Shown here: piece after piece, positions 15,046-49,546 of the stretch
How the letters are laid out: every line of letters begins with the position of its first letter
Position numbering within the stretch: position 1 is the first letter of the stretch
DNA from: Sphingomonas sp. PAMC26645
Lineage (GTDB): Bacteria > Pseudomonadota > Alphaproteobacteria > Sphingomonadales > Sphingomonadaceae
NCBI RefSeq assembly: GCF_004795835.1
Contig: NZ_CP039249.1
Location: 3,695,001-3,759,000 of the forward strand
Direction of reading: 5' to 3'
Length of the DNA: 64,000 nt
Translations under genes and position numbers: made by a program
The notes under the pieces: generated by a model
What the model was told of the DNA's origin: nothing
The model's database searches: none
The model's input: the letters and a program-made list of their open reading frames with translations, nothing else

Positions 15046-15066
15046 GCGTATCTCCCGGAATTCATA

Positions 15067-16512
15067 TCAGTAGCGGGCGGCGAGCAAGGCGGGCTTGCGG
15101 CGCTCTAGGTCGAGGATCAGCTCGCCGAACAATCCATTGGCCCAGGCGAACCAGCTGCGCGTGAACTTGCCCGGATCGTCCTTGTTGAAGGATTCGTGCA
15201 TGAACCCGGTGCCGCCGTGTGTCGTCTTCAGCCAAGCGAGACACTGGCGGATCACGGCGTCGTCGTCGCTGTTCATCGCATGCGTGATAATCGACATCGG
15301 CCATATCATGTCGAGCCCGATATGCGGTCCGCCGATCCCGCGCGCGGCGGTACCGGTGAAGAAATACGGGTTGCGATCGCTCCACGCGAGCACGGCGGTG
15401 CGGCGGAACAGCGGGTCGCGGCGATCCGCCGCGCCGAGCAGCGGCAGGCCCGACAGGCTCGGCACGTTGGCGTCGTCCATGGAGATCGCGTTGCCGAAGC
15501 CATCGACCTCATACGCCCAGACCTCGCCGCCCTGCCCGTCCGGCATCCGGCCATGCGCGCGGAGTGCCGCCTCGACCTCGCTCGCCAGCGCTTCGCTGTC
15601 AGTCGCGCCCGCCATGTCGCCCCGCGCCTCGCGCTGGACCGTCGCCAGCATGCGCAGCGCCGACACCGCGAACAGGTTCGACGGGATCAGGAACGGATAG
15701 AGGCACGCATCGTCCGACGGGCGGAACATCGAATGGATCAGGCCGACCTTCCGCGTCGGGGCGCCATAGCCTTCGAACATCAGCGTCTCGGTCGGCGAAA
15801 CGTTCAAGCGCTGGAAATGATACGGCCCCTTGCCGTCCTTGCGCTGCTGTTCGCGGAAGGTCGCCACCGCGCGGCGCATCGCCTTTGCCCACAGATCGTC
15901 GAACGGCGTCTTGTCGCGCGTCGCGGTCCAATAGCCGTGCGCGAGCCGCATCGGATAGCAAAGCGAGTCGATCTCCCACTTCCGCTCGGCAACACCAGGC
16001 TTCATGTCGGTCTGGTCGGTTCGCGCGCCGAGGTTCGACCTGGCGGTCGGATCCTCCATGAACGCATTGGCATAAGGATCGATCAGGATGCACCGCGCCT
16101 GCCGCGCGATCAGCCCGGTGAAGACGCGGCGCAGGCCGGCATCCTTCGGCGCGAGGTGCACATAGGTCTGCATCTGCGCCGAACTGTCGCGTAGCCACAG
16201 CGCCTCGATATCGCCGGTGATGACGAACGCATCGGGCTTGCCGTCCACGGTGCCGACCTTGACCGTGGTGTCGAGCGTGTTCGGATAGCAATTCTCGAAC
16301 AGCCAAGCGAGTTCGGGGTCGGCGATTTTCGCCTTCACGCGCGCGATCTCGGCCTCGACCGCGGGGCTGACGAAGCGGCGCTGGCCGCGTGGCGGTCGCT
16401 TGCTCACGCGTGGCGCGGCGGCGGAGGCAGCCCGCGGCACGCTCGCGGTTACGGCCAGCGCGGCGGCGCCCGTCATCACGTCGCGTCGACGAAAGCGCAT
16501 CGCAGTCTTCAT
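15067..16512 (-). CDS. GH125 family exo-alpha-1,6-mannosidase
   Basis: A protein of about 481 residues, MKTAMRFRRRDVMTGAAALA, with a twin-arginine-type signal. It matches the metal-independent alpha-mannosidase family (formerly DUF1237): GDIEALWLRDSSAQMQTYV, KWEIDSLCYPMRLAHGYW, MFRPSDDACLYPFLIPSN and GTGFMHESFNKDDPGKFTRS. Family members remove alpha-1,6-linked mannose, as in the yeast mannan backbone. I chose the ATG at 16512, two bases after the GH92 stop; a TTG at 16518 in frame would overlap it. It sits between two GH92 genes, which fits stepwise debranching and backbone removal. Confidence 0.92.
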   Translation of the reverse strand: MKTAMRFRRRDVMTGAAALAVTASVPRAASAAAPRVSKRPPRGQRRFVSPAVEAEIARVKAKIADPELAWLFENCYPNTLDTTVKVGTVDGKPDAFVITGDIEALWLRDSSAQMQTYVHLAPKDAGLRRVFTGLIARQARCILIDPYANAFMEDPTARSNLGARTDQTDMKPGVAERKWEIDSLCYPMRLAHGYWTATRDKTPFDDLWAKAMRRAVATFREQQRKDGKGPYHFQRLNVSPTETLMFEGYGAPTRKVGLIHSMFRPSDDACLYPFLIPSNLFAVSALRMLATVQREARGDMAGATDSEALASEVEAALRAHGRMPDGQGGEVWAYEVDGFGNAISMDDANVPSLSGLPLLGAADRRDPLFRRTAVLAWSDRNPYFFTGTAARGIGGPHIGLDMIWPMSIITHAMNSDDDAVIRQCLAWLKTTHGGTGFMHESFNKDDPGKFTRSWFAWANGLFGELILDLERRKPALLAARY

Positions 16513-16514
16513 GG

Positions 16515-18902: not shown

Positions 18903-20077
18903 ATCGCTCTCCCTGAATTTCGTGTCGGCTTCTGCACGCCGATCGGTCGCGGCTTCACGCCCGCTTCGGTCATCACCACCGGCTCGATCCGACCATCGGC
19001 GGCAAAAACCATCCTGTCGATCGCGATCTGGCGGTGTTCGCCGCGATCGGTGTCGAGCGGGCGACGGTGATACGCGATGTACCAGTCGTCGGTGCCGGGC
19101 ACGTTGACGACCGAGTGATGCCCCGCGCCGCGCGCGATGCGCAGATCCTCCGACAGGATCTTGCCGCGCGGCGTGAACGGCCCGGTCGGTCCCGGCCCGG
19201 TCGCATAGGCGACGCTATAGTCCGGGCCCGTCCAGCCGCCCTCCGACCACATCAGGTAATACACGCCTTTGCGCTCGATCATGAACGAGCCCTCGACATA
19301 GCCGGGCGGCGTCACTTCCTTGTAGGTCGAGCCATCGGCGAACGGCAAGATGCGCTTGAGGTCGGGGCTGAGCCGGACGACGTTGCAATGCTTCCAGCCG
19401 CCGTAGAACAGATAGACCTGGCCATCGTGATCGCGAAACGCGAACGGGTCGATCGGTTGCGCGCCGTTGTGGAACGCGCCGACCAGCGGCTTGCCGATCG
19501 CGTCCTTGAACGGACCACCGGGCCGGTCGCTGACCGCGAGGCCGATCCCGCCAAGCTCCGCATCGCTCTGGATGTCGTTCGCGCTGAAGAACATGTAATA
19601 GCGACCGTTCGCCTGGATCACCGACGGCGCCCAGATCGCGTACGCCGCCCACGCTGCGTTCCGCACGTCGAACACATGCTCGTGCTTGGTCCAATGCACC
19701 AGATCCGGCGACGAGAACGCATTGAAGAAAGTCTGCATCCCGTAGGACGGCCGCACCGTCTTGCGTTGCCGCGCGAGCTTTTGCGCGGCCGAGAAGCGGC
19801 TGGTGACGTCAGGCTTGCCGTAATGATCCGAATAGGTCGGATAGATCCAGTAGCGGCCGGCGAACACGCGAATCTCTGGGTCGGCATACCAGCCGGGAAC
19901 GATCGGGTTCGACGCACTCGCCAGCCCGCACATCATCAGCGCCGACGCGGTCAGCGCGATCCGAACCCCGCGCCGTCCGTGCGTTTCGCCAACGCCGTGC
20001 GACGCGGCGCTGCGAGAAAAGGGAGGGTAGCGCCGCGAAGGCGCCACCCGAGAGACAAGCCGATCAAACCAGGTCAT
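18899..20077 (-). CDS. GH43 family glycosidase
   Basis: A 392-residue protein with the five-bladed GH43 pattern. The catalytic triad is visible: Asp66 as base in GWYADPEIR, Asp210 in AQPIDPFAF and Glu262 as acid in YVEGSFMIERKGVYYLMWSE. The start ATG overlaps the receptor stop as TGATG, so coupling supports it, though the leader before the hydrophobic core (IALTASALMMCGLASAS) is unusually long, about 38 residues. GH43 enzymes mostly release arabinose, xylose or galactose. In this mannosidase operon it may remove side-chain sugars. Confidence 0.9.
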   Translation of the reverse strand: MTWFDRLVSRVAPSRRYPPFSRSAASHGVGETHGRRGVRIALTASALMMCGLASASNPIVPGWYADPEIRVFAGRYWIYPTYSDHYGKPDVTSRFSAAQKLARQRKTVRPSYGMQTFFNAFSSPDLVHWTKHEHVFDVRNAAWAAYAIWAPSVIQANGRYYMFFSANDIQSDAELGGIGLAVSDRPGGPFKDAIGKPLVGAFHNGAQPIDPFAFRDHDGQVYLFYGGWKHCNVVRLSPDLKRILPFADGSTYKEVTPPGYVEGSFMIERKGVYYLMWSEGGWTGPDYSVAYATGPGPTGPFTPRGKILSEDLRIARGAGHHSVVNVPGTDDWYIAYHRRPLDTDRGEHRQIAIDRMVFAADGRIEPVVMTEAGVKPRPIGVQKPTRNSGRAM

Positions 20078-23000
20078 CAGAAGTTGAACGACACGCCCAC
20101 ATAGGCCCGCCGCCCGAAGTAATTCCGGTAGGTGAAGCGGTCCTTCGTATCGTTGCCGAGATGACGGCTTTCCTCCGCCTTGGTAAGGTTGATCACCGAG
20201 GCGGTGAGGTTCAGCCGGTCGGTCAGCGCGTATGCCGCGTTGAGGTCGACCTGCGCATAGGGATCGGTGTATTCGTTCAGGCCCGACTGCAACCCGCCGA
20301 CGACTTCGCCGCGCCGGTTGTACGATGCGCGCAGCAACACCTTGCCATGTTCGTAGAAGACCGACGCGTTGACCTGCGTCTTGGCGCTGCCGACCAAGGC
20401 GGACGAGCCGACCTTCTGGCCGTCGAGCGTCACGTCCGCCACCGAGGTGTCGTTATAGGTGAAGTTGACCTGCGCGCCGAGACCGAACGACAGCGTGTGC
20501 TGCGCGTACAGTTCGACACCCTGCGACCGCGCGTTCGAACCGTTCGCGACGGTCGAGTAAGGCTGGATCAGCTGCTGCGTTCCGTTGACGTCGCGCGTGA
20601 CGTTGAGGACCAACGGCACCACGAAGTCCGACACGTCCTTGCGGAAGAAGGTCGCGCCGAGCACCGAACCGCGGTGGAAATACCATTCGATGCCTAGGTC
20701 GTATTGCCATGCCGAGAACGGGTTCAGGTCCGAATTGCCGCCGCTGCCCGACCAGCCGGCGAACTCGCCGAACTGGCCGCGATCGAACGCATACGCATCC
20801 GAGCGGAAGGTGAGCGAGCGCTGCGACCCGAGATCGGAGAAGGACGGCCTCGCAATGACCTTGGCGACGGCGCCGCGGACGAGGAGATCGGGCGTGACCT
20901 CGTACGACACGTTGAAGCTCGGCAGCCAGTCCGTGTAGGTCTTCGACTGATCGGCGCGCGTGTTGACGATCGTCTCGCGCACGCTGAGCGGCAGCACCTG
21001 GCAATTGCCGTCGGGGCCGAGCGGACGGTTGGGATCGGCCGCCCCGCCGGGTCCGTTGACGCAATAGTCGTTGAGATATTGCAGGCGATCGGAGGTATTG
21101 CCCGACTGCTTGGTGTTGGCCATGCGGAGGCCGACGTTACCGCGGAGACCACCGGTCCCGAAGTTCACCTGCGCGTAACCGGCGAAGACCCGCTCCCCCA
21201 GGGAATAGACGAAGTCGGGTTCGTACACGCGTACGGCTTTGCCATAGGTCGAGTTCAGGTAGTTGAGATACTGCTCGAAATTGATGCCCGGCACGACGTT
21301 GGCGTTGAAGCCGCCGTTGATGTTGCCGATCTGGTTTGCGTAGAAGAATTCGGGGCGGGCGACGGCGCCCGCGGCGGTATCCTGGTAGCGGAGCGGCGTC
21401 GCCGGATCGGCATACCAGTCGTTGCGACCGGTCTCGCGGCCGATCTTCAGGTCCCGCCACTTGCCGCCGATCTGCACCGACTTCAGGAAGCCGTCGAACC
21501 GCCTTGTCAGGTCGAGCTGTGCATAACGCTGACCGAGGTCACTGTTGACGAAGCTCGATCCGGTCGAGCCCACGTCGATCTGCGCGATCCCGTTGCGGAT
21601 GTTGTTCTGCAGCTCGGGCGAGAACTCGAAATTGGCGATGCCGTCCGAGATATCCCAGTTGCTGACCAGATTGCCGTTCTGCTCCCGGCCCGGCGTCGTC
21701 AGGCGCGGCTTGGCGGCGACGCTGAAGCGCACCGACGGGCCACCGCTCGACTTGGTCTTGCCCAGTTTCAGCACGGCGTCGAAACGGTCCTGGCTGTATT
21801 TGACCTCGGTCTCGAACGTGTTCGAAACCTGCTTCTCGCGGCTGTACGTGCCAGCGATCTGCGGCGTCTCCATCGTGCACGGGGTCGGGCGCGCGAGGCA
21901 GCCCGTTCCCGCCGCCGGCACCGCGAAATTGGCCGACTGGAAGATCGTCCCGCTCTTGTCGAACGTCGCGCCGGTAAAGAAGTTGTCGTAGCCCCACTCG
22001 GGGATCTTCAGCACGTTCGAGGTATAGTTGCTGCTATAGCCAAACCGGAAATAGTTCGCGGTGACCGTGACCGCCTCGAACGGCTTGAACTGCGCGGTCG
22101 CCTGGATCCCGTACCGCTCGCGTTCCTGGTCGAAGACTTCGGCGTTGACCGACTGCGGCGCCCAATAGCCCGAATAATGCGTGCCATCGCGCGCAGTCGT
22201 GCCCTGCCCCGGCCAGTAGGAGATCGCGTCGTTGTTCGCGAAGGTCTTGCCATCGACATCGGTCGCGGGCTTCAGGACGTTGCCCTGCGCGTCGCGGTCG
22301 CTCCACCACAGCCAGCTTTCGGACGAGCTGCGCAGCTCGCGGTTGGTGCGCTTCTGCCAGACGCCGCCGACCAGCAGACCGAACGTCTCCTCCTTGTTCT
22401 TCCACGACACCTGCCCGCCAAGCTGCGGTTCGTACTTCTCGGTCGTGTCCGAATACGTACCCTCGGCGGAGACGAAACCCGACCACGCCGGCACGTCGAA
22501 CGGCCGCCGGGTGTTGAGGATGATCGTGCCGCCGACACCGCCTTCTTCAAGCCGCGCTTCGGGCGACTTATAGACCTCGGTGCTGGCGATGAAGGTCGAC
22601 GGCAGCAGGACGTAGTTGAACGATCGCTGCGGCTCGCCACTGTCGGCGCCGGCGAGAAAATTGCCGTTGAGCAAGGTGAGCGTCAGGCCCGACTGAAGGC
22701 CGCGGATACTGACCCGGCTACCTTCGCCGCCGTCGCGGGTGATGACCACGCCCGGCACGCGCTGCAACGCATCGGCGACGTTCTTGTCGGGGAACTTGCC
22801 GACGTCTTCGGCGGTGATGACGTCGACGAACGCGTTCGCCTCGCGCTTCTGAGTGAGGCTCTTCTCGATCGAGCGCCGATACCCGGTAACGACGATGTCG
22901 CCAGTGTCCTGCGCCGACCCATCCGGCCGTGTCGTGCCGGCGGTTTGCCCGGACTCCGCCGTAGCGGTCGAAGCGGGCTGCGCCTGGTCGGTTGGGGTCG

Positions 23001-23148
23001 CGTTCTGGGGAGGCGTAGCGGAAGGCGCGGCCTGTTGAGCCTGGGCAGCACCGGCCAACGCCGCAGTAAGACTGACCGTGGCCAACAGGAACGACAACGG
23101 ACGATGGCGACGCGCCACGATCGAGCACGATTCTATGCTTGCGGTCAT
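20077..23148 (-). CDS. TonB-dependent receptor of the mannoside locus
   Basis: An outer-membrane receptor of about 1023 residues. The ATG at 23148 has AGGAAAG a few bases before it. A signal peptide ends AGAAQAQQ; a Pro/Ala/Thr/Gln-rich linker precedes the TonB-box-like GDIVVTGYRRSIEK. The plug has GKFPDKNVADALQRVPGV and VSIRGLQ. The barrel ends AYVGVSFNF, with the C-terminal Phe typical of outer-membrane proteins. It opens the operon that continues with GH43, GH92, GH125 and GH92, so a mannose-containing oligosaccharide is the likely ligand. Confidence 0.94.
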   Translation of the reverse strand: MTASIESCSIVARRHRPLSFLLATVSLTAALAGAAQAQQAAPSATPPQNATPTDQAQPASTATAESGQTAGTTRPDGSAQDTGDIVVTGYRRSIEKSLTQKREANAFVDVITAEDVGKFPDKNVADALQRVPGVVITRDGGEGSRVSIRGLQSGLTLTLLNGNFLAGADSGEPQRSFNYVLLPSTFIASTEVYKSPEARLEEGGVGGTIILNTRRPFDVPAWSGFVSAEGTYSDTTEKYEPQLGGQVSWKNKEETFGLLVGGVWQKRTNRELRSSSESWLWWSDRDAQGNVLKPATDVDGKTFANNDAISYWPGQGTTARDGTHYSGYWAPQSVNAEVFDQERERYGIQATAQFKPFEAVTVTANYFRFGYSSNYTSNVLKIPEWGYDNFFTGATFDKSGTIFQSANFAVPAAGTGCLARPTPCTMETPQIAGTYSREKQVSNTFETEVKYSQDRFDAVLKLGKTKSSGGPSVRFSVAAKPRLTTPGREQNGNLVSNWDISDGIANFEFSPELQNNIRNGIAQIDVGSTGSSFVNSDLGQRYAQLDLTRRFDGFLKSVQIGGKWRDLKIGRETGRNDWYADPATPLRYQDTAAGAVARPEFFYANQIGNINGGFNANVVPGINFEQYLNYLNSTYGKAVRVYEPDFVYSLGERVFAGYAQVNFGTGGLRGNVGLRMANTKQSGNTSDRLQYLNDYCVNGPGGAADPNRPLGPDGNCQVLPLSVRETIVNTRADQSKTYTDWLPSFNVSYEVTPDLLVRGAVAKVIARPSFSDLGSQRSLTFRSDAYAFDRGQFGEFAGWSGSGGNSDLNPFSAWQYDLGIEWYFHRGSVLGATFFRKDVSDFVVPLVLNVTRDVNGTQQLIQPYSTVANGSNARSQGVELYAQHTLSFGLGAQVNFTYNDTSVADVTLDGQKVGSSALVGSAKTQVNASVFYEHGKVLLRASYNRRGEVVGGLQSGLNEYTDPYAQVDLNAAYALTDRLNLTASVINLTKAEESRHLGNDTKDRFTYRNYFGRRAYVGVSFNF

Positions 23149-23278
23149 CAGACTTTCCTCTTCCTCGTGAGGATGCCTGCGCTCCCTCACTTACCCCTGC
23201 GAATAGCGCGCCTGCCCCCCGTTTTCGGTTGGGCTGTCCGGTTGAATCGGATCCTGTCGGCGTGCAGTCTCGACCCGT

Positions 23279-23313
23279 CTATTTGCCAATTGTAAAAGCA
23301 AATTGTCAAATAG
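23279..23313. promoter_or_regulatory. Long AT-rich dyad upstream of the mannoside operon
   Basis: CTATTTGCCAATT (23279-23291) and AATTGTCAAATAG (23301-23313) form 13-base arms with one mismatch around a 9-base spacer, about 131 bases before the receptor start. It is the only strong AT-rich symmetry in the gene-free stretch 23149-23517. ROK-family repressors such as NagC and Mlc bind AT-rich dyads, and a ROK gene ends about 200 bases away, so it is a natural operator candidate. I see no other feature in this stretch. Confidence 0.55.
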
Positions 23314-23517
23314 ATTGTTGTGTAAGTTTTGGACCGTTGCGGACGCAACTCAGCGAATACCCTTCGATGCGCCGATAGTCTGGGGGAAGACACCGCGAGG
23401 ATTCACGCCTGGCCTCGCGTATTCGTACACGAACGACGGCAACAGCCCGCTCTCCGCAACCCCAAGCGCACGGAGTCCTCACATGCGAAGATAGCGGTAC
23501 CGAACCGATTACCGACG

Positions 23518-24717
23518 TCAGTCGGCTGCCGCGCCGGAATCCTTCCAGAGCGCAGCGGCCTTGGGCAGCAGGAAATGACTGAACGGCAGGATCGCCGCAC
23601 CAACGGCAGGCGCATCCTCCGACAGCGCGGCACGGCGGACCGGCGCGATCGCAGGCGCATCGGTAGCGTCCCGCATCAACGCGTTGACCCGCTCCGCCAC
23701 CCGTTCCACCAACCGGCTCGGGAGGCGCCCGCCGATCAGGATCACCGCCGGATCGATCAGGCAGTTGATCGCGTCGAGGGGCGTGCAGAGCGTGTGTGCC
23801 GCCCTCTCCACCCATTCCTCCAGGCAGCGCTCGATGTCTGGCGCCCAGTCGGCCTGATGCAGCACCTGCCCGATCTCGAACCCCGCATTCGCCAGATGCT
23901 CGGCAAGTCCGGATAGCGATACCAGTTTCTGCACGGTCTCGCGTCCCCGCTTGCCGCCGCCGGCCGCCATGAACCCCAGCTCGCCGCTGCGACCGTGCGT
24001 GCCGCGAACATACGCGCCATCCGCAACGAAGCCACCGCCCAGCCCCGACGACACGAGGATGTAGAAGAAACTGCTGTAATTCTGTCCGAAGCCCAACTGC
24101 ATCTCGCCCATCGCGGCGGCGGCGGCATCGTTCTCGACGAACACGGGCAGCGACAGCGGCTTGTCGAACAGCGTCGCCATGTCGATTCCGTCCCACGCCG
24201 CATAGGCGGCCGGACGGCCCGGCATCGCGACCAGCGCGAGGTCATCGGGTCGTGCCACGCCGATGCCGACTAGCTTGGCGGGATCGACCTTCGCGCTTTT
24301 GAGCATAGCGCGTACCGAGCGCCGGAACAGATCGCGGACGTCGTCGGGCAGCGCAAAGCTGATCTCGATCGACTTGCGCGCGAGGATCTGCGCCAGGAAA
24401 TCGACCAGCACGATCGTGATCTGGTCGCGGTCGATATTGACGCCGATCGAATAGCACGCATCGGCCCGGACGACGAGTTTAGTCGGCGGCTGACCACGTC
24501 CACCGCGACGCTGCCCCGCCTCCTCGATCATGCCTTCCTGCAACAGCCGCCGCGTGATGTTGGCGATCGCCGGCCCGGTCAGCCCGGTGATCCGCGCAAG
24601 GTCGATCCGCGTCAGCGATCCGCCGAGGCGAATGGCATGCAGCGTCACGCGCTGGTTGTGGTCGGCGGCGCGCTCGAGGTTGGTCCCCGACAGACGCGGC
24701 GGCGTTTGAAGAGTCAT
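23518..24717 (-). CDS. ROK family transcriptional regulator lacking the zinc-binding cysteines
   Basis: A 399-residue protein. Residues about 15-70 form a winged helix (TRIDLARITGLTGPAIANITRRLLQE). The sugar-kinase-like part has SIGVNIDRDQITIVLVD, VFVENDAAAAAMGE (194-204), SSGLGGGFVADGAYVRGTHG and SGELGF (244-249). In typical ROK proteins the next stretch holds a His and three Cys that bind zinc (GH...CxCGxxGC). Here Phe249 stands where His is usual, and residues 250-275 contain no Cys at all. It lies between the mannoside operon and the divergent GH92 gene and probably controls one or both; the inducer may be mannose or a derivative. Confidence 0.88.
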   Translation of the reverse strand: MTLQTPPRLSGTNLERAADHNQRVTLHAIRLGGSLTRIDLARITGLTGPAIANITRRLLQEGMIEEAGQRRGGRGQPPTKLVVRADACYSIGVNIDRDQITIVLVDFLAQILARKSIEISFALPDDVRDLFRRSVRAMLKSAKVDPAKLVGIGVARPDDLALVAMPGRPAAYAAWDGIDMATLFDKPLSLPVFVENDAAAAAMGEMQLGFGQNYSSFFYILVSSGLGGGFVADGAYVRGTHGRSGELGFMAAGGGKRGRETVQKLVSLSGLAEHLANAGFEIGQVLHQADWAPDIERCLEEWVERAAHTLCTPLDAINCLIDPAVILIGGRLPSRLVERVAERVNALMRDATDAPAIAPVRRAALSEDAPAVGAAILPFSHFLLPKAAALWKDSGAAAD

Positions 24718-25077
24718 GCGGACCGATCATTCAGGTTGGAGAACAGAAAACGAAGCCGCTCTGCAATGCAATGCAGCAATTTCAGCGTTGGCGACGAAGT
24801 GATCCCGCGATTGCGAAGGCTTGGCAAGCGCACACTATTGGCGTTCAGTGAACGCGCGGCATATCGGCCCGGCCTGAAGACCATCTTCTGCATCCCCCGC
24901 TTCCAAACTGTTCGTTTGAATTATCCAATTTGATGTTCTAATCCACTTCTGCGGTTGCGCAAGAGCTGGCGATGAAGCCAGTTTGGCAACCGAACGAATA
25001 GAGGGGATGTGCGCGACATGTTTCACCTGGCACCCGGCAAGCTCCCCCGCCTATTTCCCTCTGAACGGGTGACCTCG
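24718..25077. promoter_or_regulatory. Divergent intergenic region between the ROK gene and GH92 copy C
   Basis: A 360-base gene-free stretch. The distal part has CAAAC-TGTTC-GTTTG, a 5-base-arm dyad at 24904-24918, followed at 24925-24933 by CCAATTTGA, whose complement contains the heptamer CAAATTG that also occurs in the dyad before the mannoside receptor. This may be a related operator half-site. Two possible starts for the GH92 gene (25018 and 25078) lie near the right edge. No gene is visible. Confidence 0.35.
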
Positions 25078-27423
25078 ATGTCCATCTTCACACGATCGTG
25101 CCTCGCGGGTGCACTGTTCACCACGATCCTCGCCGGCACCGCCTTCGCACAGGATGCTGCCAAACCGAGCGATGCGGTGGATCCGTTCATCGGCACGGGC
25201 GGCGAAGGCCACACCTTCCCGGGCGCGGTCGCACCGTTCGGCATGGTCCAGCTTTCGCCGGATACCGACACCTCGTGCGTGATCCGCACCTGCTATGGCC
25301 ATGCCGCCGGCTATCGCTACGACGATCCGACGATCGAGGGGTTCAGCCACACGCATTTCTCGGGCGCGGGGCATTCCGATCTCGGCGACATCCTCGTCAT
25401 GCCGGTATCGGGCGAGACCGTGCCGATGGACCCCGGCACGCCCACCGCACCCGGCTATCGCTCGCGCTTTTCGCATGCCAGCGAAGTCGCCAAGCCGGGC
25501 TATTACGCGGTCACCCTCGACGGGCCTGGCGTACGCGCGGAAATGACTGCGGGCACTCGGATCGGCGTGCATCGCTACAGCTTCCCCAAGGGCAAGGCCG
25601 CGCACCTCGTCGTCGATCTCCGGTCGTCGCTGTATAATTATCCCGGCAAGATCCTGTGGTCGGGACTGCATTTGCGGGACGACGGCGTGCTCACTGGCTT
25701 CCGCGAGACGCGCGGCTGGGCACCCGGCCGCAAGCTCTACTTCGCGATGCGGTTCTCCGCGCCGCTGGTCGGCCACGCGCTGGTCAACCGCGAGAAGGAT
25801 ATCCCGTACAAGGGGTTCCAGGGCCCAGGCCGCGGCAGCGATGCGCTCGCGGAAAAGCTTGGCCAGGCGCTGGAAGCACGGCTCGACTTCGGCCCGCTCG
25901 ACGCTCCGCTGGAGGTGAAGGTCGGGATCTCCGGCGTCGATGAAGCCGGGGCGCTCGCCAATCTCGACAGCGAACCCGGTAACTTCGACGCCGTCCGCGC
26001 CAAGACTACAAGCGACTGGGATACCGCGCTCGGCGCCGTCAAGTTCGAGGCGCCCGCACCGATGCGCCGCATCTTCGCGACCGCGCTATATCACAGCCTG
26101 CTCGCCCCGAGCGTGTGGAGCGACAGCGACGGGCGCTACCGCGGCCCTGACGACCAAGTGCATCAGGCCGATGGCTTTACGGTTCGATCGACCTTTTCCC
26201 TCTGGGACACGTTCCGCGCCGAACATCCGCTGCTGACGCTGATCCAGCCCGAGAAAACCAACAGCGACATCGTTCGCTCGCTGATCGCCGGCCAGCAGCA
26301 CAGCCCCGATGGCATCCTTCCGGTCTGGCAATTCGCCGGGCGCGAGACGTGGACGATGATCGGCTATCACGCCGTCCCCGTCATCGCCGACGCGTATATG
26401 AAAGGCATCGGCGGCTTCGACGCGGACGCGGCGTTGCAGGCGATGGTCGCGAGCGCCGACCACGCGTCCTACGGTGGCCTCGGCGAGTATATCCAGCGCG
26501 GTTACGTCCCGATCGACAAGGAGCCGGAGGCCGCGTCGAAGACCGTCGAATATGCCTATGACGACTGGACGATCGCGCGGATGGCGCGGCGGATGGGCAA
26601 GACCGACATCGCCGAGCGGTTCGAGAAGCGCGCGGGCAACTGGCGCAACAGTTTCGACGCGAAGTCCGGCTGGCTGCGCGCAAGGCTCGCGAACGGCAGT
26701 TTCCGCACCCCCTTCGATCCGACCGCGATTAACTACGGCTCCGATTATACGGAGGGCAATGCGTGGCAATATAGCTGGTTCGTGCCGCAGGATCAGGCGG
26801 GCTTGTTCCGGCTGCTCGGCGGCGATGCGAAGACCGTGAAGAAGCTCGACGCGATGTTCGACTTCGACAATTCGAAAGTCGATTACAGCCATGCGGAGGA
26901 TATTGCCGGGCTGATCGGCCAGTATATCCACGGTAACGAACCGAGCCACCACGTCGCCTATCTCTACAATTACGCCGGCGCACCGTGGCGGACGCAGGAG
27001 CGGCTCGGCCAGATCGTGCGGAGCCAATATGGCGCCAAACCCGAGGGGCTGAGCGGCAACGACGATCTCGGCCAGATGTCCGCATGGCTCGTCTTCACCG
27101 CACTCGGTTTCTACCCGGTCGCGCCGGGATCGAACGAATATGTCATCGGCCGCCCGTTCCTGTCGCAGGCGACGCTCACGCTGTCCGGCGGCAAGCAGTT
27201 CGCGATCCGGACGGACAATCTGTCGGACGCCAACCCCTATATCCGCTCGGTCACGCTCAACGGAACGCCCCTCACCCGCAGCTATCTGCGCGACGACGAG
27301 ATCCGCCAGGGCGGCGAGCTTCGCTTCGTGATGGCCGCGAAACCGAACAAGCTCTGGGGCAAGGGGGCGAAGTCGCGGCCGTTCTCGTCCTCGACCACGG
27401 CTTCGATCCCAACGCGCAACTAA
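25078..27423 (+). CDS. GH92 family alpha-mannosidase (copy C)
   Basis: A 781-residue exported enzyme. The signal peptide MSIFTRSCLAGALFTTILAG ends at TAFAQ. It has all common GH92 stretches: VDPFIGTGGEGHTFPGAVAP, GFSHTHFSGAGHSDLGD, YTEGNAWQYSWFVPQ, YIHGNEPSHHVAYLYNYA with Glu621, and GNDDLGQMSAW. It is therefore the most canonical of the three copies and the likeliest alpha-1,2- or alpha-1,3-mannosidase. I chose 25078 because it gives a clean signal peptide; an ATG at 25018 has GAGGGG 10 bases before it and would add 20 residues. It is transcribed away from the ROK gene. Confidence 0.93.
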   Translation: MSIFTRSCLAGALFTTILAGTAFAQDAAKPSDAVDPFIGTGGEGHTFPGAVAPFGMVQLSPDTDTSCVIRTCYGHAAGYRYDDPTIEGFSHTHFSGAGHSDLGDILVMPVSGETVPMDPGTPTAPGYRSRFSHASEVAKPGYYAVTLDGPGVRAEMTAGTRIGVHRYSFPKGKAAHLVVDLRSSLYNYPGKILWSGLHLRDDGVLTGFRETRGWAPGRKLYFAMRFSAPLVGHALVNREKDIPYKGFQGPGRGSDALAEKLGQALEARLDFGPLDAPLEVKVGISGVDEAGALANLDSEPGNFDAVRAKTTSDWDTALGAVKFEAPAPMRRIFATALYHSLLAPSVWSDSDGRYRGPDDQVHQADGFTVRSTFSLWDTFRAEHPLLTLIQPEKTNSDIVRSLIAGQQHSPDGILPVWQFAGRETWTMIGYHAVPVIADAYMKGIGGFDADAALQAMVASADHASYGGLGEYIQRGYVPIDKEPEAASKTVEYAYDDWTIARMARRMGKTDIAERFEKRAGNWRNSFDAKSGWLRARLANGSFRTPFDPTAINYGSDYTEGNAWQYSWFVPQDQAGLFRLLGGDAKTVKKLDAMFDFDNSKVDYSHAEDIAGLIGQYIHGNEPSHHVAYLYNYAGAPWRTQERLGQIVRSQYGAKPEGLSGNDDLGQMSAWLVFTALGFYPVAPGSNEYVIGRPFLSQATLTLSGGKQFAIRTDNLSDANPYIRSVTLNGTPLTRSYLRDDEIRQGGELRFVMAAKPNKLWGKGAKSRPFSSSTTASIPTRN

Positions 27424-40542: not shown

Positions 40543-40572
40543 ATGCAGGGGATGCGTGCATGGTGGCGTTGA
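40543..40572 (+). CDS. Possible 9-codon leader peptide overlapping the first glycosyltransferase start
   Basis: ATG at 40543 follows a near-ideal AGGGGAG by 6 bases and encodes MQGMRAWWR before TGA at 40572. The glycosyltransferase ATG at 40560 lies inside this short frame, in another phase. If translated, ribosomes finishing the leader would pass or restart at the gene start. The tandem Trp is suggestive of attenuation-style control but no stem-loop pair is obvious. Equally, the AGGGGAG could be a chance match. Confidence 0.3.
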   Translation: MQGMRAWWR

Positions 40573-41750
40573 GCGAACGACGATCGGTCGTCGTCATCAG
40601 CGACTGGGTCGACGGCTGGCCTCCCGCGGATCCCTCCGCCGCAACGCCTCCTCGCGATGGATCGGCATGGCGCGCGCTCGATTCCGCGAGCCGACCCTGG
40701 ACGGGTGCCGCCGACCACCGCGAGCCCGTCGCCGGCGGGTATCTCGAACGCCTTCCGCTCGCACTCGTCGCGGCCGGAATCGTCGAGCAGGCCGAGATCT
40801 GGCATCACTGGCGCGGCGAAGGCGACCCGCCATTCCGCCGCGACAGCCCGGTGCTCGCGCGCCGCGCCTTCCGCCTCGACCACGACCACGCACCGTTCGC
40901 CTCCACCGAGATGATCGACTTCGTGCGGGCATTCGGCGCACCGGACATCCTGGTCGTGCTGGGTCTCGGCGTCGCGCCCGAACTCCTCGCGCTCTGTGCG
41001 AACAGCATCATCCTCTACAATTCGATCGACGCGCCCTCGTTGCGCGTGCCGCCCGAAGTCAGCGAACATTTCGATCTCGTCATCACCGGCGCGCAGTGGC
41101 AGTCGGACGAGGTCGAGGCGCGCCACCCCGGCATGCGCACCGCGATCCTGCCGGTCGGTCCCGAATTCGCCGCGATCGACCAGTTCCGCCCGCTCGGCAC
41201 GCCCAAGGACTTCGACCTGATCTACGTCGCCGCCGCGCAACCGTATAAGCGCCACGACATCCTGTTCGACGCGCTCGCGCGACTCCCGCGCAACATCCGC
41301 GCGCTCTGCGTATTCGGATACGGCGAGGATGCCGACGCACTCCGCCAACGCGCGCGCGATCAGAACCTCTCGATCGAGTTTGTCGGGCCACCGGGCGTAC
41401 CGATCGACGAGGTCAACCGCCTGATGAACCGCGCGAAGTTCGGCGTCGTCTGCGGCATCGACGACGGCGCGCCGGCGATCCTCACCGAATACATGCTCGC
41501 CGGCCTGCCGGTGCTCGCCAACGCGGGATTACGCTGCGGATTGCAGTTCATCCTGCCCGAGACCGGCATGACTGCTTCGACGACCGGGTTTGCCGATGCG
41601 ATCCTTACAATGCGCGAAACCTACGCCGAATTTCGGCCCCGCGACGCCGTATTGGAGCGTTGGACTTGGCAGCATAGCGTTGTGCGTTTGGGTGCGATTA
41701 TCCAGCAAATACATGATGCAAAGCAATTACATTTGCATAGTCAGGTCTGA
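40560..41750 (+). CDS. Glycosyltransferase family 4-like protein
   Basis: A 396-residue protein. The C-terminal half has GT4-type features: LIYVAAAQPYKRHDILFDAL, then FGYGEDADALRQRA and a donor-binding loop GIDDGAPAILTEYMLAGLPV, in which the Glu is the usual E-x7-E-type acid. The N-terminal half is less typical and includes SIILYNSIDAPSLRVPPEV, as in transferases that bind a long-chain acceptor. The ATG has AGGGG 8 bases upstream. It is the first gene of the glycan cluster; the next gene starts 3 bases after its stop. Donor and acceptor are unknown. Confidence 0.82.
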   Translation: MVALSERRSVVVISDWVDGWPPADPSAATPPRDGSAWRALDSASRPWTGAADHREPVAGGYLERLPLALVAAGIVEQAEIWHHWRGEGDPPFRRDSPVLARRAFRLDHDHAPFASTEMIDFVRAFGAPDILVVLGLGVAPELLALCANSIILYNSIDAPSLRVPPEVSEHFDLVITGAQWQSDEVEARHPGMRTAILPVGPEFAAIDQFRPLGTPKDFDLIYVAAAQPYKRHDILFDALARLPRNIRALCVFGYGEDADALRQRARDQNLSIEFVGPPGVPIDEVNRLMNRAKFGVVCGIDDGAPAILTEYMLAGLPVLANAGLRCGLQFILPETGMTASTTGFADAILTMRETYAEFRPRDAVLERWTWQHSVVRLGAIIQQIHDAKQLHLHSQV

Positions 41751-41753
41751 GGC

Positions 41754-44125
<2,372 letters not shown>

Positions 44126-44129
<4 letters not shown>

Positions 44130-46198
44130 CGCGCATCTGCCTGCTGACCGACAGCCTCGCCCCGTCCGGCGTCGGCGCGCACATGATGACGCTCGCCGAA
44201 GGACTGGGCGGAGACGAGATCGTCGTCGCCGCGCGTCCCGGCACCGGTCTGCTCGAACACGCCGCCGCCAAGGGCTATGCGGTTAAAGCGCTCGACGACG
44301 ATGCGGGCCTCGCGCGCTGGCTAGACCGCGCCGCGCCCGACATCGTCCACGTCCACGCCGGCATAGGCTGGGAAGGCCACGCCGCCGTCCGAGCCGCGCA
44401 CAAGGCTGGCGTACCCGTGATCCGAACCGAGCACCTTCCCTACCTCCTGACCGACCCCGCCCAGCGCGACGAGCACCGCGACACCTCGGCCGCGCTCGCA
44501 CGCCTGATCTGCGTCTCGGACGCAGTCGGCGACAGCCACCGCGCAGTAGGTATCGATCCGGCCCTCGTCGCAACGATCCACAATGGAGTCGGCGCCCACA
44601 AACCCTCGCGATCACGCGACGCCCTCCGCAGTGAATGGGGCGTCGGCGATGCCCCCGTCCTGCTAATGGTCGCGCGCTTTGCGGAGCAAAAGGGCCACGC
44701 GCTCCTGCTCGACGCGCTGCCCGCGATCCGCGCCGCGCATCCGGACGTGATCGTACTACTCGCCGGCGAAGGCCCCCTCCTGACGCAGACGGCACGCGCC
44801 GTTGCCGCCAAGGGACTGGCCGGCACAGTCCGCATGCTCGGCACCCGCAGCGACGTCGCCGACCTGATGACGCTCGCCGACCTGCTCGTCATGCCCTCCG
44901 CGTTCGAAGGCCTGCCGCTGGTCGCGCTCGAAGCGATGGCCGCCGGGCTCCCCGTCGTCGCCACCGTCGCCCCCGGCAATGCCGAAGCAATCGAGGACGG
45001 CGTCACCGGTCGCCTGACCGCCGCTGACCCGGCTAGTTTCGTCGATGCGATCGTCACGCTGCTCGCTGACCGCGACAGCCTGAAAACGATGGCCAGCGCC
45101 GCGATCGAGCGCCAGCAGGACCTATTCTCGGCCGATCGCATGATCGCCGACACGCGCGCGGTCTACGCCGCCGTGCACGACCAGACAGACACCAAACATA
45201 AGGGAGACGGCGTGGAGCGGACGCGGATCGGGTTCATCGGCGCAGGCGGCATCGCCAACCGCCATTTCGGCGTGCTGGAGCAATTCGACGACGTCGCGAT
45301 CGTCGCGGTCGCCGACGTCGAAATGGCCCGCGCGACCGAGGCGGCTGCCCGCTTCGGCGCGCGCGCATTTGACGATGCCGCGGCGATGCTGGCCGCGGTC
45401 GACCTCGACGCGCTCTACATCTGCGTGCCCCCCTTCGCGCACGGCGAACCCGAACGCCTCGCGATCGAGCACAAGCTGCCGTTCTTCGTCGAAAAGCCCG
45501 TCGCGCTAGACCTCGGCACCGCGGAGGACGTCGCCGCCGCAGTCGACCGGCTCGGCCTCGTCACCGCGGTAGGCTATCACTGGCGCTACCTCGACACCGT
45601 CGACGAGGTGAAGGCGCTGCTCTCCGCCACCCCCGCCCGCCTCCTCTCCGGTTATTGGCTCGATTCCACGCCGCCACCGCGCTGGTGGTGGAAGAAGGAC
45701 GCATCCGGCGGGCAGATGCTCGAACAGACGACGCACTTGGTCGATCTCGCGCGCTACCTCGTCGGCGACGTCGTCCGCGTCTACGGCCAGTCGGGCCATA
45801 TCGACCGCGCCGCTTTCCCCGGCCTCGACGTCGCCACCGCCAGCACCGCGATGCTCACCTTCGCCAGCGGCGCGATCGCCAATTTCGCGTCGACCTGCCT
45901 GCTCAACTGGAACCACCGCGTCGGCCTGCACCTGTTCGGCGAAGGCCTCGCGATCGAACTCACCGACCGCGACGTGATGATCGACATCGGCCGCGGTCGC
46001 CCGGTCCGCGGCACCGGCAGCGATCCGGTCGTGCTCGAGGATCGCGACTTCATCGACGCGGTTCGCGGGGGCGAGAACCGCATCCGCTGCCCCTACCCTG
46101 CCGCGCTCGAAACGCTTCGCTTGGCGCTGGCGATCGAACGCTCCGCCGTCGAAGGTCGCGCGATCGACGTCCGCGAGCGCGAGGTGGCGCATGTCTGA
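44126..46198 (+). CDS. Fusion of GT4-type glycosyltransferase and Gfo/Idh/MocA oxidoreductase
   Basis: A 690-residue protein whose ATG overlaps the previous stop. Residues 1-350 are a GT4-type transferase: LAPSGVGAHMMTLAEGLG, DIVHVHAGIGWEG, LLMVARFAEQKGHALLLDA, and the donor loop PSAFEGLPLVALEAMAAGLP. Residues about 364-690 are a Gfo/Idh/MocA protein: Rossmann motif RIGFIGAGGIANRHFG, the EKP motif in FFVEKPVALD, and GGQMLEQTTHLVDLARYLVG with the active-site His. At the junction a strong ribosome site precedes an in-frame GTG at 45212, so the second domain might also be made alone. A nucleotide-sugar or sugar substrate is likely. Confidence 0.88.
45200..45214 (+). promoter_or_regulatory. Internal ribosome-binding site and GTG start inside the GT-oxidoreductase fusion
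   Basis: AAGGGAG at 45200-45206 lies 5 bases before GTG at 45212, which is in frame with the long gene and begins the oxidoreductase domain as (M)ERTRIGFIGAGG. The position at the exact domain boundary and the clean spacing suggest that the second domain is also made by itself. Confidence 0.55.
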
Positions 46199-47291
46199 GT
46201 GGCGCCACGTCCGCTCGCTCGGCGTCGAACGCCCCGGGCAGGCCTATTTCTTCGGCTACGACGAGGCGCCCCCCTGCGACGGTCAGGTCCGCCTCGACCT
46301 GCTCTACACCGGGTTTTCCGCCGGCACCGAACTCACCTTCGTCAAGAACAGCAACCCGTATCTCCACTCCCGCTGGGACGCAGGCCGCGGCGTGTTCGTC
46401 CCCGGCGAACCGAGCGCGCACTATCCGGTGCCGTTCCTCGGCTACATGGAATGCGCGCGCGTCAGCGACAGCCGGGTCGACGATTTCACCAACGGCGATG
46501 TCGTCGGCACGGTGTTCGGCCACAAGACCGGCCACACCGCGGACCCGTTCAACGATTTGCTGACCAAGCTCCCGCCCGAGCTCGATCCGATCCTCGGCAT
46601 CTATATCGGCCAGATGGGTCCGATCGCCGCCAACGGCATTCTTCACGCAGACGTGGAACTGCTCGGACCCAACGTGGTCAACCTAGGCGACGGCATCCGC
46701 GGCCGCCCCGCTATGGTGATCGGCGCAGGCATCGTCGGCATGCTCACCGCCCTGTTCGCGCAAGCCGCCGGCGCGAGCGAAGTCGTGATCGCCGACCCGT
46801 CCCCCTTCCGCCGCCTGCGCGCCGAATGCCTCGGCATAACCGCGATGACCGAGGACCAGGCCTGGGCGTACGCCAAGGCACGCTGGCTCCACGGCGGCGA
46901 CGATCGCGGCGCGGACGTCGTGTTCCAGACCCGCGCCGACGCCGCCAGCCTCCACGCCGCGATGCGCGCGCTGAGGCCGCAGGGCACGGTGATCGACCTC
47001 GCCTTCTACCAGGGTGGCGCCGACCGGCTCCGGCTCGGCGAGGAATTCCACCACAACGGCCTCAACCTCCGCTGCGCGCAGATCAACCGCGTCCCCCGCG
47101 GGCTCGACTTCCAATGGGACCGCCGCCGCCTCGCCAACGAGACGGTCAAGCTGCTGCTCGCCCGCGGCCCCGAGATCCGCGCGCAGCTCATCACGCACGT
47201 CGTGCCCTATGACGACGCCCCCGCGTTTATCGCACGGCTGATCGGCGAGCGGCCCGAATTCCTCCAGATCGTCTTCAAGGTCGGCGATTGA
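46191..47291 (+). CDS. Medium-chain dehydrogenase/reductase, zinc-alcohol-dehydrogenase-like without the usual catalytic Cys
   Basis: A 366-residue protein that overlaps the previous gene by 8 bases; GAGG lies 6 bases before the ATG. The N-terminal part reads LYTGFSAGTELTFVKN where zinc alcohol dehydrogenases have a Cys before GTD, so the catalytic zinc site is absent. The Rossmann fold is clear, AMVIGAGIVGMLTALFAQAA then VVIADPSPFRRLRAECLG. SAGTE-type dehydrogenases are known next to or fused with Gfo-type oxidoreductases (bi-domain oxidoreductases) in glycan clusters. Here the Gfo part is the end of the gene before it, so the two probably act in one step. Confidence 0.8.
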   Translation: MSEWRHVRSLGVERPGQAYFFGYDEAPPCDGQVRLDLLYTGFSAGTELTFVKNSNPYLHSRWDAGRGVFVPGEPSAHYPVPFLGYMECARVSDSRVDDFTNGDVVGTVFGHKTGHTADPFNDLLTKLPPELDPILGIYIGQMGPIAANGILHADVELLGPNVVNLGDGIRGRPAMVIGAGIVGMLTALFAQAAGASEVVIADPSPFRRLRAECLGITAMTEDQAWAYAKARWLHGGDDRGADVVFQTRADAASLHAAMRALRPQGTVIDLAFYQGGADRLRLGEEFHHNGLNLRCAQINRVPRGLDFQWDRRRLANETVKLLLARGPEIRAQLITHVVPYDDAPAFIARLIGERPEFLQIVFKVGD

Positions 47292-49546
47292 GTACCGCAC
47301 TCACTGCCGACGCCCGCCCGATCCGCATCCTGTTCGTCTTCGCCTGGCTCGTCGTCGGCGGCGAGGAGACGGAGGTGCGGCTGCTCGCGCAGGCGCTCGA
47401 CCCGACCCGCTACCGGATCGAGGTCGTCGCCTGCTTCCGAAAAGACGGCATGCCCGAGCAGACGCATGCGCAACTGGAAGCGATCGGCGTCCCCGTCGAC
47501 CGCACGCCCTACGCGCTCGGCTTCGACGAGACCGTCGCCTACCTCGCGAGCAAGCTGCCCGCGTACGACGTCGTCGTCTCGTGCCAGAACGTCGCGGACA
47601 TCTATCCCGCGCTCGAACGCATGCACCTCCGCCCGCCGTTGATCGAACATGGCGGCCTCGTCTCCGAAGCGCTCGCCGGCCCCAAGCATTTCACCGCGCG
47701 CTATGTCGGCGTCTGCGCCTCGATCCGCGACGCCGCCGCCAGCCGCATGCCCGGCCGCGAACACCACGCGATCGAAATTCCGTCGATGGTCGACACGCGC
47801 GCTTTCGGCCCTGCCCGGCGAGCGCCGGTCCGTGCGACGCTAGGGATCGCCGAAGACGTACCGCTGATCGGCTGGCTAGGCCGGCTCGACCCGAAGAAAC
47901 GAGTCGAGGACTTCATCGAAGCCGCCGCGCTCATCCACGCCCGCCACCCCCGCGCCCGCTTCGTGGTAATCGGCGGCCCCGACGCCTTCATCCCCGAATA
48001 CGCCGCCGCGCTCCGCAACCGCGCGCACGCCCTCGGCCTCGACACCGCCCTGACCTTCCTTGGTGATCGCGACGACGTGCCCGACCTGCTCGCCGCACTC
48101 GACATGTTCGTCTGGCTCTCCCGCGGCGAAGGCATGCCGCACGTCATCGCCGAAGCCGGCGCCGCACGCCTCCCCGTCATAGCGACGCGCGACAACGGCT
48201 CCGAACAACAGATTGTCGACGGGGTCAGCGGCCTGTTCGTGCCCCACGAAGACCCGCCCTCAGTTGCCGCCGCGATCACCAAACTGCTCGAAGACTCGGC
48301 ACTTCGATCCCGCCTCGGCACCGCCCTCCGCGCCAAGGTCGACAGCGAGTACGCCGTCGCCGCCGTCGTCCCCCGCTGGGAAGCCCTGTTCGCGGAAGTC
48401 CTTTCCGACCGGCCACCTCTCCCCCGGCCGACAGGCCTCTTCCGCAGCGTCCTGCAAGGCGGCTTCGAATCCTCCACGCACCGCCGCGCGCACGACCGCA
48501 AGCGCGTCGATGTCATCGCCGCCAGCCATCACGACACCCTCGCCGCGCACGATTACAGCGAACTCGCCAAGCTCGGCATCCTCACCGTCCGCGACGGACT
48601 GCGCTGGCATTTGATCGAACACGAGCCCGGCCGCTACGACTGGTCCAGCCTCGACCGCCAGCTGGAAGCCGCCAAGGCGATCGGTACCGAAGTCATTTGG
48701 GACCTGCTCCATTACGGCTGGCCCGACGACATCGACATCTGGACGCCTGCCTTCGTCACCCGCTTCGCCGCCTTCGCCGCCGCCGCCGCGCGCCACATCG
48801 GCCCGGCCGCTCCCGGTGAGACGCGCTTCTACGCCCCCGTCAACGAAATCTCATTCTTCGCCTGGGGCGGCGGCGACGCAGCCTATCTCAACCCGTTCGC
48901 GCAACGCCGCGGCTACGAACTGAAGGTGCAGCTCGCCCGCGCCTCGATCGCCGCGATGGAAGCGATCCTCGCAATCGACCCCGCCGCGCGGTTCGTCCAC
49001 GCCGACCCGGTCATCAACGTCATCACCGACCCCGCCCGCCCCAACGACGCCCCCGCCGCCGAAGGCCACCGCCTCGCGCAATTCCAGGCCTGGGACATGA
49101 TCGCGGGCAAAGCATGGCCCCAGATCGGCGGCCGCGCGCCATTGCTCGATATCGTCGGCGTAAATTTCTACCACAACAACCAGTGGATCCACGGTGGCCC
49201 ACCGTTGGCGTACGATCATCCTCTCAGCCGCCCGCTCCACGCAATCCTCGCCGACGCTTACACGCGCTACGGCCGCCCGATCTTGATCGCCGAAACCGGC
49301 ATCGAAGGCAGCGCCCGCCCCGCCTGGCTCCGCATGATCCTGCGCGAGGTGAAGATCGCCCAGTCGCTCGGCGTTCCGGTCGAGGGCGTGTGCCTCTACC
49401 CGATCCTAGACCACCCCGGCTGGGACGACGATCGCTACTGCCCCAACGGCCTGCTCGCCTGCTCGCCGGTCCTCGCCGACCGCGTGCCTAACGCCGCGCT
49501 CGCCGACGTCATCCGGCAGGCGCAGGGGCGCGATATCCTGCGTTAA
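47288..49546 (+). CDS. Fusion of GT4-type glycosyltransferase and clan-A glycoside hydrolase-like domain
   Basis: A 752-residue protein with a TTG start that overlaps the previous stop as TTGA. Residues about 10-375 are a GT4-type transferase: FVFAWLVVGGEETEVRLLAQ, IGWLGRLDPKKRVEDFIEAA and the donor loop SRGEGMPHVIAEAGAARLPV. Residues about 395-745 form a TIM-barrel glycosidase-like domain similar to GH1 or other clan-A enzymes. The likely acid is Glu520 in YAPVNEISFF and the nucleophile Glu669 in LIAETGIEGS, in the usual order. The domain could hydrolyse, transfer or only bind a glycan. Last gene of the cluster; 100 bases without a gene follow. Confidence 0.85.
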   Translation: MSTALTADARPIRILFVFAWLVVGGEETEVRLLAQALDPTRYRIEVVACFRKDGMPEQTHAQLEAIGVPVDRTPYALGFDETVAYLASKLPAYDVVVSCQNVADIYPALERMHLRPPLIEHGGLVSEALAGPKHFTARYVGVCASIRDAAASRMPGREHHAIEIPSMVDTRAFGPARRAPVRATLGIAEDVPLIGWLGRLDPKKRVEDFIEAAALIHARHPRARFVVIGGPDAFIPEYAAALRNRAHALGLDTALTFLGDRDDVPDLLAALDMFVWLSRGEGMPHVIAEAGAARLPVIATRDNGSEQQIVDGVSGLFVPHEDPPSVAAAITKLLEDSALRSRLGTALRAKVDSEYAVAAVVPRWEALFAEVLSDRPPLPRPTGLFRSVLQGGFESSTHRRAHDRKRVDVIAASHHDTLAAHDYSELAKLGILTVRDGLRWHLIEHEPGRYDWSSLDRQLEAAKAIGTEVIWDLLHYGWPDDIDIWTPAFVTRFAAFAAAAARHIGPAAPGETRFYAPVNEISFFAWGGGDAAYLNPFAQRRGYELKVQLARASIAAMEAILAIDPAARFVHADPVINVITDPARPNDAPAAEGHRLAQFQAWDMIAGKAWPQIGGRAPLLDIVGVNFYHNNQWIHGGPPLAYDHPLSRPLHAILADAYTRYGRPILIAETGIEGSARPAWLRMILREVKIAQSLGVPVEGVCLYPILDHPGWDDDRYCPNGLLACSPVLADRVPNAALADVIRQAQGRDILR

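Follow-up and report, generated by a model that had tools for sequence, protein, structure and literature searches.

What kind of product is made by a run of genes in which glycosyltransferases (GTs) are fused to other sugar enzymes is the question raised by a locus of Sphingomonas sp. PAMC26645. We analysed a stretch of 64,000 nucleotides (hereafter the window; NCBI RefSeq assembly GCF_004795835.1, contig NZ_CP039249.1, bases 3,695,001–3,759,000 of a one-contig 4.28 Mb genome), in which five plus-strand open reading frames (ORFs, g1–g5) span positions 40560–49546. They occupy 40560–41750, 41754–44129, 44126–46198, 46191–47291 and 47288–49546, with a gap of 3 bases followed by overlaps of 4, 8 and 4 bases, and thus form the compact cluster that a preliminary description of this DNA had reported. 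Our preferred reading, to which we assign a probability of about 0.5, is that the five genes together form a self-contained cassette of patchy distribution, and that they would assemble a short galactofuranose (Galf)-containing glycoconjugate in the cytoplasm, with a membrane lipid as its most likely carrier; judged from its sequence, the most likely product is a glycolipid head group. Families were assigned by Pfam/NCBIfam scans of the five proteins, where all four GT parts exceeded the cut-offs of the Pfam GT4 models, as follows.

40560–41750, plus strand: g1, GT4 glycosyltransferase (PF00534 44.7 bits and PF13692 42.3 bits, both above cut-off)
41754–42974, plus strand: g2 N-terminal half, GT4-like (TuaH-like) glycosyltransferase, the GT of the core module described below (PF13692 36.2 bits, cut-off 27)
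42999–44129, plus strand: g2 C-terminal half, UDP-galactopyranose mutase (UGM), Glf (PF03275 and TIGR00031 above cut-off; best PDB match 3hdq, E 9e-170)
44126–45190, plus strand: g3 N-terminal half, GT4 glycosyltransferase (PF00534 124 bits)
45215–46198, plus strand: g3 C-terminal half, Gfo/Idh/MocA oxidoreductase, below Gfo (PF01408 83 bits, PF22725 56 bits)
46191–47291, plus strand: g4, medium-chain dehydrogenase/reductase (MDR; alcohol-dehydrogenase-like) protein (PF00107, ADH_zinc_N, 41.8 bits, cut-off 31.8, the sole family matched)
47288–48412, plus strand: g5 N-terminal half, GT4 glycosyltransferase (PF00534 112 bits; Foldseek matches to HepE, MshA, PimB' and BshA)
48437–49546, plus strand: g5 C-terminal half, glycoside hydrolase (GH) family 1-like domain (structure model, Foldseek GH1 matches, conservation, profile against PDB; E520 after strand 4, E669 after strand 7)

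The start of g1 at 40560 is supported by alignments to relatives, which begin at residue 1–10 in many loci. The N-terminal half of g2 scored 93 bits against the TuaH model, far under the cut-off of 550, and a sequence search of the PDB at E ≤ 0.001 gave no match for it.

An alignment search of genome contigs with g5 returned 444 relatives, the best 80 of which were used for the locus comparisons. All genes were found in order in 71 of these 80 loci, 55 of them five-gene loci with Glf and 16 with the same order and no Glf domain; among the other nine, six were cut by contig ends (L035, L042, L046, L055, L076, L096), g1 was not seen in two (L054, L069) and lay downstream in one (L071). The GT–Glf join was in one frame in 57 of the 59 loci holding both halves, the GT–Gfo join in 71 of 77 and the GT–GH join in 79 of 80. 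The exceptions for g2 and g5 (L032, L052) resemble frame breaks, and GT and Gfo were not in one frame in six loci (L066, L071, L072, L073, L080, L099). Identity per part ranged from 38 to 99% and was kept across orders, and of the flank families beyond the cassette none was shared by more than 20 of 81 loci compared. The search across genomes that the preliminary description had proposed thus finds order and fusions conserved in most loci, and the domain scans and one-frame joins show that the three bifunctional GTs it had named (with Glf, with Gfo and with a clan-A glycosidase-like domain) are genuine and no frame artefact of the window genome. Frame errors at the junctions, one of two outcomes named there as refuting, are excluded by these joins. 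The other, domains occurring as separate genes, is seen in some relatives (the six GT/Gfo loci and the 16 without a Glf domain); the association survives it, because the split GT and Gfo remain neighbours in unchanged order and a Glf is found elsewhere in each of the 16 genomes with Glf-less cassettes. The MDR gene g4 belongs to the fusion set as well, since Gfo and MDR lie in one frame in 45 of 78 loci. As a side observation, g5 or g2 is in two pieces or frames in G018, G083, L032 and L052, and by their sequence some cassette copies are decaying or misassembled.

The assignment of the cassette to Galf is strong. Against PF03275 and TIGR00031, g2 scored 267 bits (cut-off 26.3) and 391 bits (cut-off 303.75), respectively, and its C-terminal half matches 3hdq, which we take to be the D. 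radiodurans UGM, over the full length. In alignments to solved UGM structures it retains the segments YGPHIFHT, KQWG, TRITE and YRY, which presumably hold the catalytic Arg, Trp and His. On this evidence the half is a UGM, which differs from 3hdq in being fused behind a GT4-like domain; the single match of the g2 protein in its own genome is itself. Among 151 genomes of one family around an Agrobacterium, 35 have Glf and 11 have the g5 fusion (split over two contigs in one of them); Glf is present in 11 of the 11 genomes with the fusion vs. 24 of the 140 without it (Fisher p = 2.6e-8, or 5e-7 without two genomes taken from cassette loci; our Fisher tests treat genomes as independent, with kinship not corrected for). 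Each of the 16 Glf-less cassettes lies in a genome with exactly one stand-alone Glf, while of ten genomes with the fused Glf nine have no other and the tenth carries two further ones. Mapped on the tree, the Glf-less state requires seven changes (state counts on 66 and 67 rows, truncated loci dropped). These co-occurrence tests strengthen the Galf link first proposed from the window. By eye, the stand-alone Glf (L102–L117) mostly has as neighbours a very large protein with repeats and one of 680 residues, the latter possibly a tetratricopeptide repeat (TPR)-type transferase.

Part of the cassette recurs well beyond the relatives compared above. To judge from sequence, a core of one GT, a UGM and a GH1-like domain recurs in varied fusions in Alpha-, Beta- and Gammaproteobacteria and in Bacteroidota. 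In Azospirillum, Skermanella, Chryseobacterium and Comamonas, sequence checks place relatives of the GH half next to Glf and a homologue of the g2 GT (in Comamonas the GH and that GT are fused), and the same neighbourhood appears by annotation and position in Mesorhizobium, Phyllobacterium and A. lipoferum, with a Glf gene in Phyllobacterium long enough for a fused GT and a GH that is not annotated. On three Deinococcus plasmids (L122, L158, L159) a single gene encodes the GH half together with an acyl-CoA-dehydrogenase-like part, with PIG-L and methyltransferase genes following close by; GT and glf follow the GH gene in D. gobiensis, and no glf was seen in the stretches read of the other two. 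In L118, genes much like this PIG-L/methyltransferase set come after GT-Glf and GH. Across 398 Pseudomonadota genomes sampled evenly, the GH occurred in 14 and Glf over cut-off in 50, with Glf in 13 of the 14 genomes with the GH vs. 37 of the 384 without it (Fisher p = 5.5e-12), and within about 6 kb of the GH in 10 of the 14.

The mutase itself varies within this core. Pantoea has a 1242-residue GH-GT-UGM fusion, the last part of which has 17 PDB chains as matches at E ≤ 0.01, led by 4dsg (E 4e-48); the bacterial chains that the window Glf matches are absent from this set, and we take the 17 to be of the eukaryotic UGM type. By this comparison the core module has used two distant UGM types, with the eukaryote-type one replacing Glf in Pantoea, and this is our best evidence that UDP-Galf is the donor of the module. 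A GH-GT-UGM fusion is also present in G698 (last part 79% identical to that of Pantoea), and a 3,792-base Chimaeribacter gene is annotated like the Pantoea fusion (the GH part checked by sequence, the rest by annotation). Enterobacterial GH-GT-UGM fusions of ~1240 residues with a UGM part of eukaryotic type lie at 7031–10756 of L125 and 7838–11554 of L146. By eye, a galE-like gene stands upstream of the core in L153 and L154, and a GH-GT fusion lies a few kb from carotenoid-like genes in L143, a 1.1 Mb genome; carotenoid glycosylation was considered on this ground and set aside.

In nine core loci whose sequence was read (L120, L121, L123, L124, L147, L149, with the exporter in two ORFs, and L153–L155), the GH gene is accompanied by an ABC exporter, and annotation places one in A. 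lipoferum, too, and next to the fusion gene of Chimaeribacter. By sequence the exporter is ABCB-type; MsbA chains match it too, less well than eukaryotic ABCB proteins. Because it lies at the GH gene in the core loci, we favour a lipid-linked product, and presumably the window cassette makes one too. The absence of a polymerase, flippase or priming transferase, remarked on in the preliminary description, holds for the 20 other window ORFs scanned (cut-offs 1e-10 and 1e-8; six gave no family), and none was found among the 25 families listed of the 125 from 127 flank ORFs of 25 relatives. As to the suggestion that a flippase might co-occur elsewhere, the ABCB-type exporter adjoins the core in distant loci, not the full cassette. 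A Wzx/Wzy-dependent polysaccharide locus was considered and set aside, as those 20 window ORFs contain none of its three hallmark genes.

The GH half is GH1-like, to judge from its modelled fold and sequence profile, without being a member of Pfam GH1. It had no Pfam match at E ≤ 0.001, only GH42 at E 0.0036, under cut-off, and no match to Pfam GH1 at E ≤ 1, a model that nine of 26 relatives match at that threshold (best 1.5e-14). Its structure model (mean pLDDT, the predicted local confidence score, 82) matches GH1 beta-glucosidases by Foldseek, and a profile of the 26 relatives matched a GH1 structure in the PDB at E 4e-25, with E520 on the acid/base and E669 on the nucleophile. In the model these residues follow strands 514–518 and 665–668, respectively, and both align to the GH1 NEP and ENG motifs, so that the clan-A likeness noted at the outset is borne out. 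Across the 26 diverse copies the nucleophile Glu is kept in 26 and the acid/base Glu in 24; the two copies with Gln at the acid/base (L135, L136; in the wider view L145, L144) have no GT or UGM nearby, and plant myrosinases carry the same change. Three copies (L119, L141, L143) keep Glu though no whole UGM adjoins, and the genome of L119 has Glf in its cassette. The domain thus shares with clan GH-A beta-glucosidases of family GH1 the fold and the positions of the two catalytic Glu, and differs in its lack of a Pfam GH1 match, its cytoplasmic location, its fusion to a GT and its tie to a UGM. Trimming and transfer are indistinguishable from the sequence of such an enzyme. Plant SFR2 is a GH1 transglycosidase that builds the sugar chains of lipids; it is eukaryotic and membrane-bound, and we draw it in as an analogy only. 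In L039, L044, L049 and L073 a second GH-like copy, 28–29% identical to the first, directly follows g5.

The oxidoreductase parts would modify a sugar. The Gfo half scored 83 bits against PF01408 (cut-off 24), carries an EKP motif that we take to be catalytic, and has DgpA and inositol dehydrogenases among its PDB relatives. The catalytic domain model of zinc-dependent alcohol dehydrogenases was not matched by g4, which matched PF00107 only; SAGTE and GYME, invariant in 20 relatives, presumably stand where MDR zinc ligands are expected, the usual zinc-site motifs being absent. Since they form one chain in 45 of 78 relatives, Gfo and MDR probably act in turn on one sugar. A structure model of a GT-Gfo-MDR fusion reached a pLDDT of 69, too poor for a structure search.

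For the Hyphomicrobiales copies there is good evidence, again at the level of DNA, of a link to stress. Of 61 non-redundant loci (an earlier redundant set had 72), 16 carry the motif GGAAC-N15-18-GTT in the 300 bases upstream of g1, with a spacing peak at 17, compared to a mean of 0.95 and a maximum of 6 in 500 dinucleotide shuffles and 3 on the reverse strand. All 16 upstreams belong to Hyphomicrobiales, and the motif was sought after stress neighbours had been seen. It resembles that of the EcfG general stress regulon, given as GGAAC-N17-20-GTT for S. melonis in the portion of the report available to us (PMC6599016). The EcfG-dependent glycosyltransferases of S. melonis Fr1 were considered as this cassette; the names given in that portion include no mutase (PMC6599016), and we claim no identity. 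An EcfG-type motif also occurs at some core operons (L123, L124, L147, L148; counted without shuffle control). Genes for DUF892, catalase or general stress proteins were found in 22 of 68 cassette loci vs. 0 of 18 control loci (p = 0.002) after 12 near-copies had been dropped, with controls that were somewhat shorter, 16 of the 18 lying around the stand-alone Glf of Glf-less genomes. These families were picked after being sighted beside some loci, and three of five core-module matches (L160, L161, L164) had supplied queries; we treat the neighbourhood as supporting evidence only. In the window, a DUF892 gene ends ~0.5 kb downstream of the cassette.

Taken together, these data suggest the following scheme. 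Glf would convert UDP-Galp to UDP-Galf, which the GT fused to it in g2 may transfer, while the GTs of g1, g3 and g5 would add other residues to a glycan built on a presumed lipid acceptor. The Gfo and MDR parts may oxidise and reduce a sugar, making or altering one residue, and the GH1-like part could trim the glycan as it grows or reshape it by transglycosylation. GT, UGM and GH1-like domain would be the older core, often with an ABCB exporter beside it that would carry the product across the inner membrane, and the general stress response appears to turn the cassette on in many Hyphomicrobiales. Such a scheme predicts Galf in many sphingomonads, rhizobia and relatives, would give a GH1-like enzyme a part in assembling a glycan instead of degrading it, would have two distant UGM types serving the same module, and would connect stress with a surface glycan in some members of the group. 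More tentatively, and probably going further than the truth, GT, UGM, GH1-like domain and ABCB exporter might constitute an undescribed cross-phylum pathway in which the GH1-like part is the required transglycosidase for an exported Galf glycolipid, with the five-gene cassette as its elaborated form, under general stress control in many species and making an envelope lipid that bacteria of leaves, air and soil produce under stress. Fusions and Galf thus stand from the preliminary description, which had missed the place of g4 in the fusion set, the core in distant bacteria, the exporter beside it, and the stress promoter motif or nearby stress genes of many Hyphomicrobiales copies. Among known systems, the bifunctional galactan synthases of Kingella kingae are likewise multi-domain enzymes that make a Galf glycan; in contrast, their product is a lipopolysaccharide (LPS) galactan polymer, and the abstract names no GH1-like part, Gfo or MDR (PMC12269835). 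We found no description of the cassette or the core module among open-licence papers.

Several observations weigh against the glycolipid cassette as we propose it. The full five-gene cassette comes without an exporter, and the best relatives of the core exporter in the window genome reach 37% identity, with partial matches up to 40%. Four of the 14 GH copies in Pseudomonadota have no near Glf (G698 and G441, both on different contigs; G501, with no Glf; G617, with a weak and distant match), and the stand-alone Glf of the 16 genomes with Glf-less cassettes is ~43% identical to the window Glf, lies mostly beside large proteins and may serve another pathway. Because GT4 enzymes are retaining, an alpha-Galf linkage would be expected, a bond that a GH1-type beta-glycosidase would leave untouched. 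Upstream of the window copy and of the other sphingomonads examined we found no EcfG-type motif (GGAAC-N15-20-GTT), which leaves the stress link of the window copy, known here from sequence alone, unsupported except for neighbouring genes.

With these points in mind, it is conceivable, if unlikely, that the cassette decorates LPS (core or O-unit) and makes no separate glycolipid, its product leaving by the ordinary LPS route that such Gram-negatives possess, as the missing exporter of the full cassette and the weaker match of the core exporter family to MsbA would allow; the loci are scattered, however, often on plasmids and with stress rather than LPS genes as neighbours, and Deinococcus, which has no LPS, carries parts of the module. 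We hold it rather improbable that the GH1-like part has lost its catalytic function and serves only to bind an acceptor or to position the GT: the window copy falls outside Pfam GH1 and is fused to a GT, and two relatives have Gln at the acid/base, whereas the catalytic pair is otherwise conserved on GH-A positions and the two Gln copies are those away from GT and UGM. More doubtful still is a soluble cytoplasmic oligosaccharide that acts as a protectant and forms no envelope glycan. The cassette has no export signal, its Hyphomicrobiales copies are linked to stress, and the GT of g5 matches enzymes of the GT4 fold, a fold also used to make soluble compounds, among them trehalose or mycothiol precursors; against this stands the exporter at the GH gene of nine core loci and, by annotation, in A. 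lipoferum and Chimaeribacter. That the locus is the remnant of an ordinary polysaccharide locus with accidental fusions seems very improbable indeed: all its families are common in such loci, and the idea is contradicted by gene content and order, which 71 of 80 loci share (six more being cut by contig ends), and by the identities kept across orders.

Sequence comparison finds the cassette conserved and present in many plant- and soil-associated bacteria, with a patchy distribution. Within the sampled genus, g5 occurs in nine of 90 other genomes (in two pieces in G018 and G083), and no full-length g5 was found in 59 other genomes of the order. The nearest named relative by g5 is Sphingomonas faeni (97%), a Roseomonas protein is 73% identical, and Sinorhizobium, Rhizobium, Agrobacterium and Aureimonas carry the cassette on plasmids; this patchiness and the plasmid copies suggest transfer. 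A tree-based claim of transfer between orders into the window lineage was considered and dropped: a first quick tree (71 of 81 rows, 10 near-copies dropped) seemed to force it, whereas a second (32 chosen rows, with Roseomonas) and an approximately unbiased (AU) test did not, a single sphingomonad clade not being rejected (p = 0.063 with Qipengyuania, 0.109 without). Roseomonas clusters with a lichen Hyphomicrobiales bin on the g5 tree (98% in the SH-like approximate likelihood ratio test, SH-aLRT). An empty-site test found the left flanking gene at E ≤ 1e-100 in nine of 91 genus genomes and no near empty site, the three close ones besides that of the window already having the cassette. Elsewhere in the window, positions 12718–27423 hold three GH92 genes, one GH125, one GH43 and a TonB receptor, which is likely an alpha-mannan or N-glycan utilisation locus.

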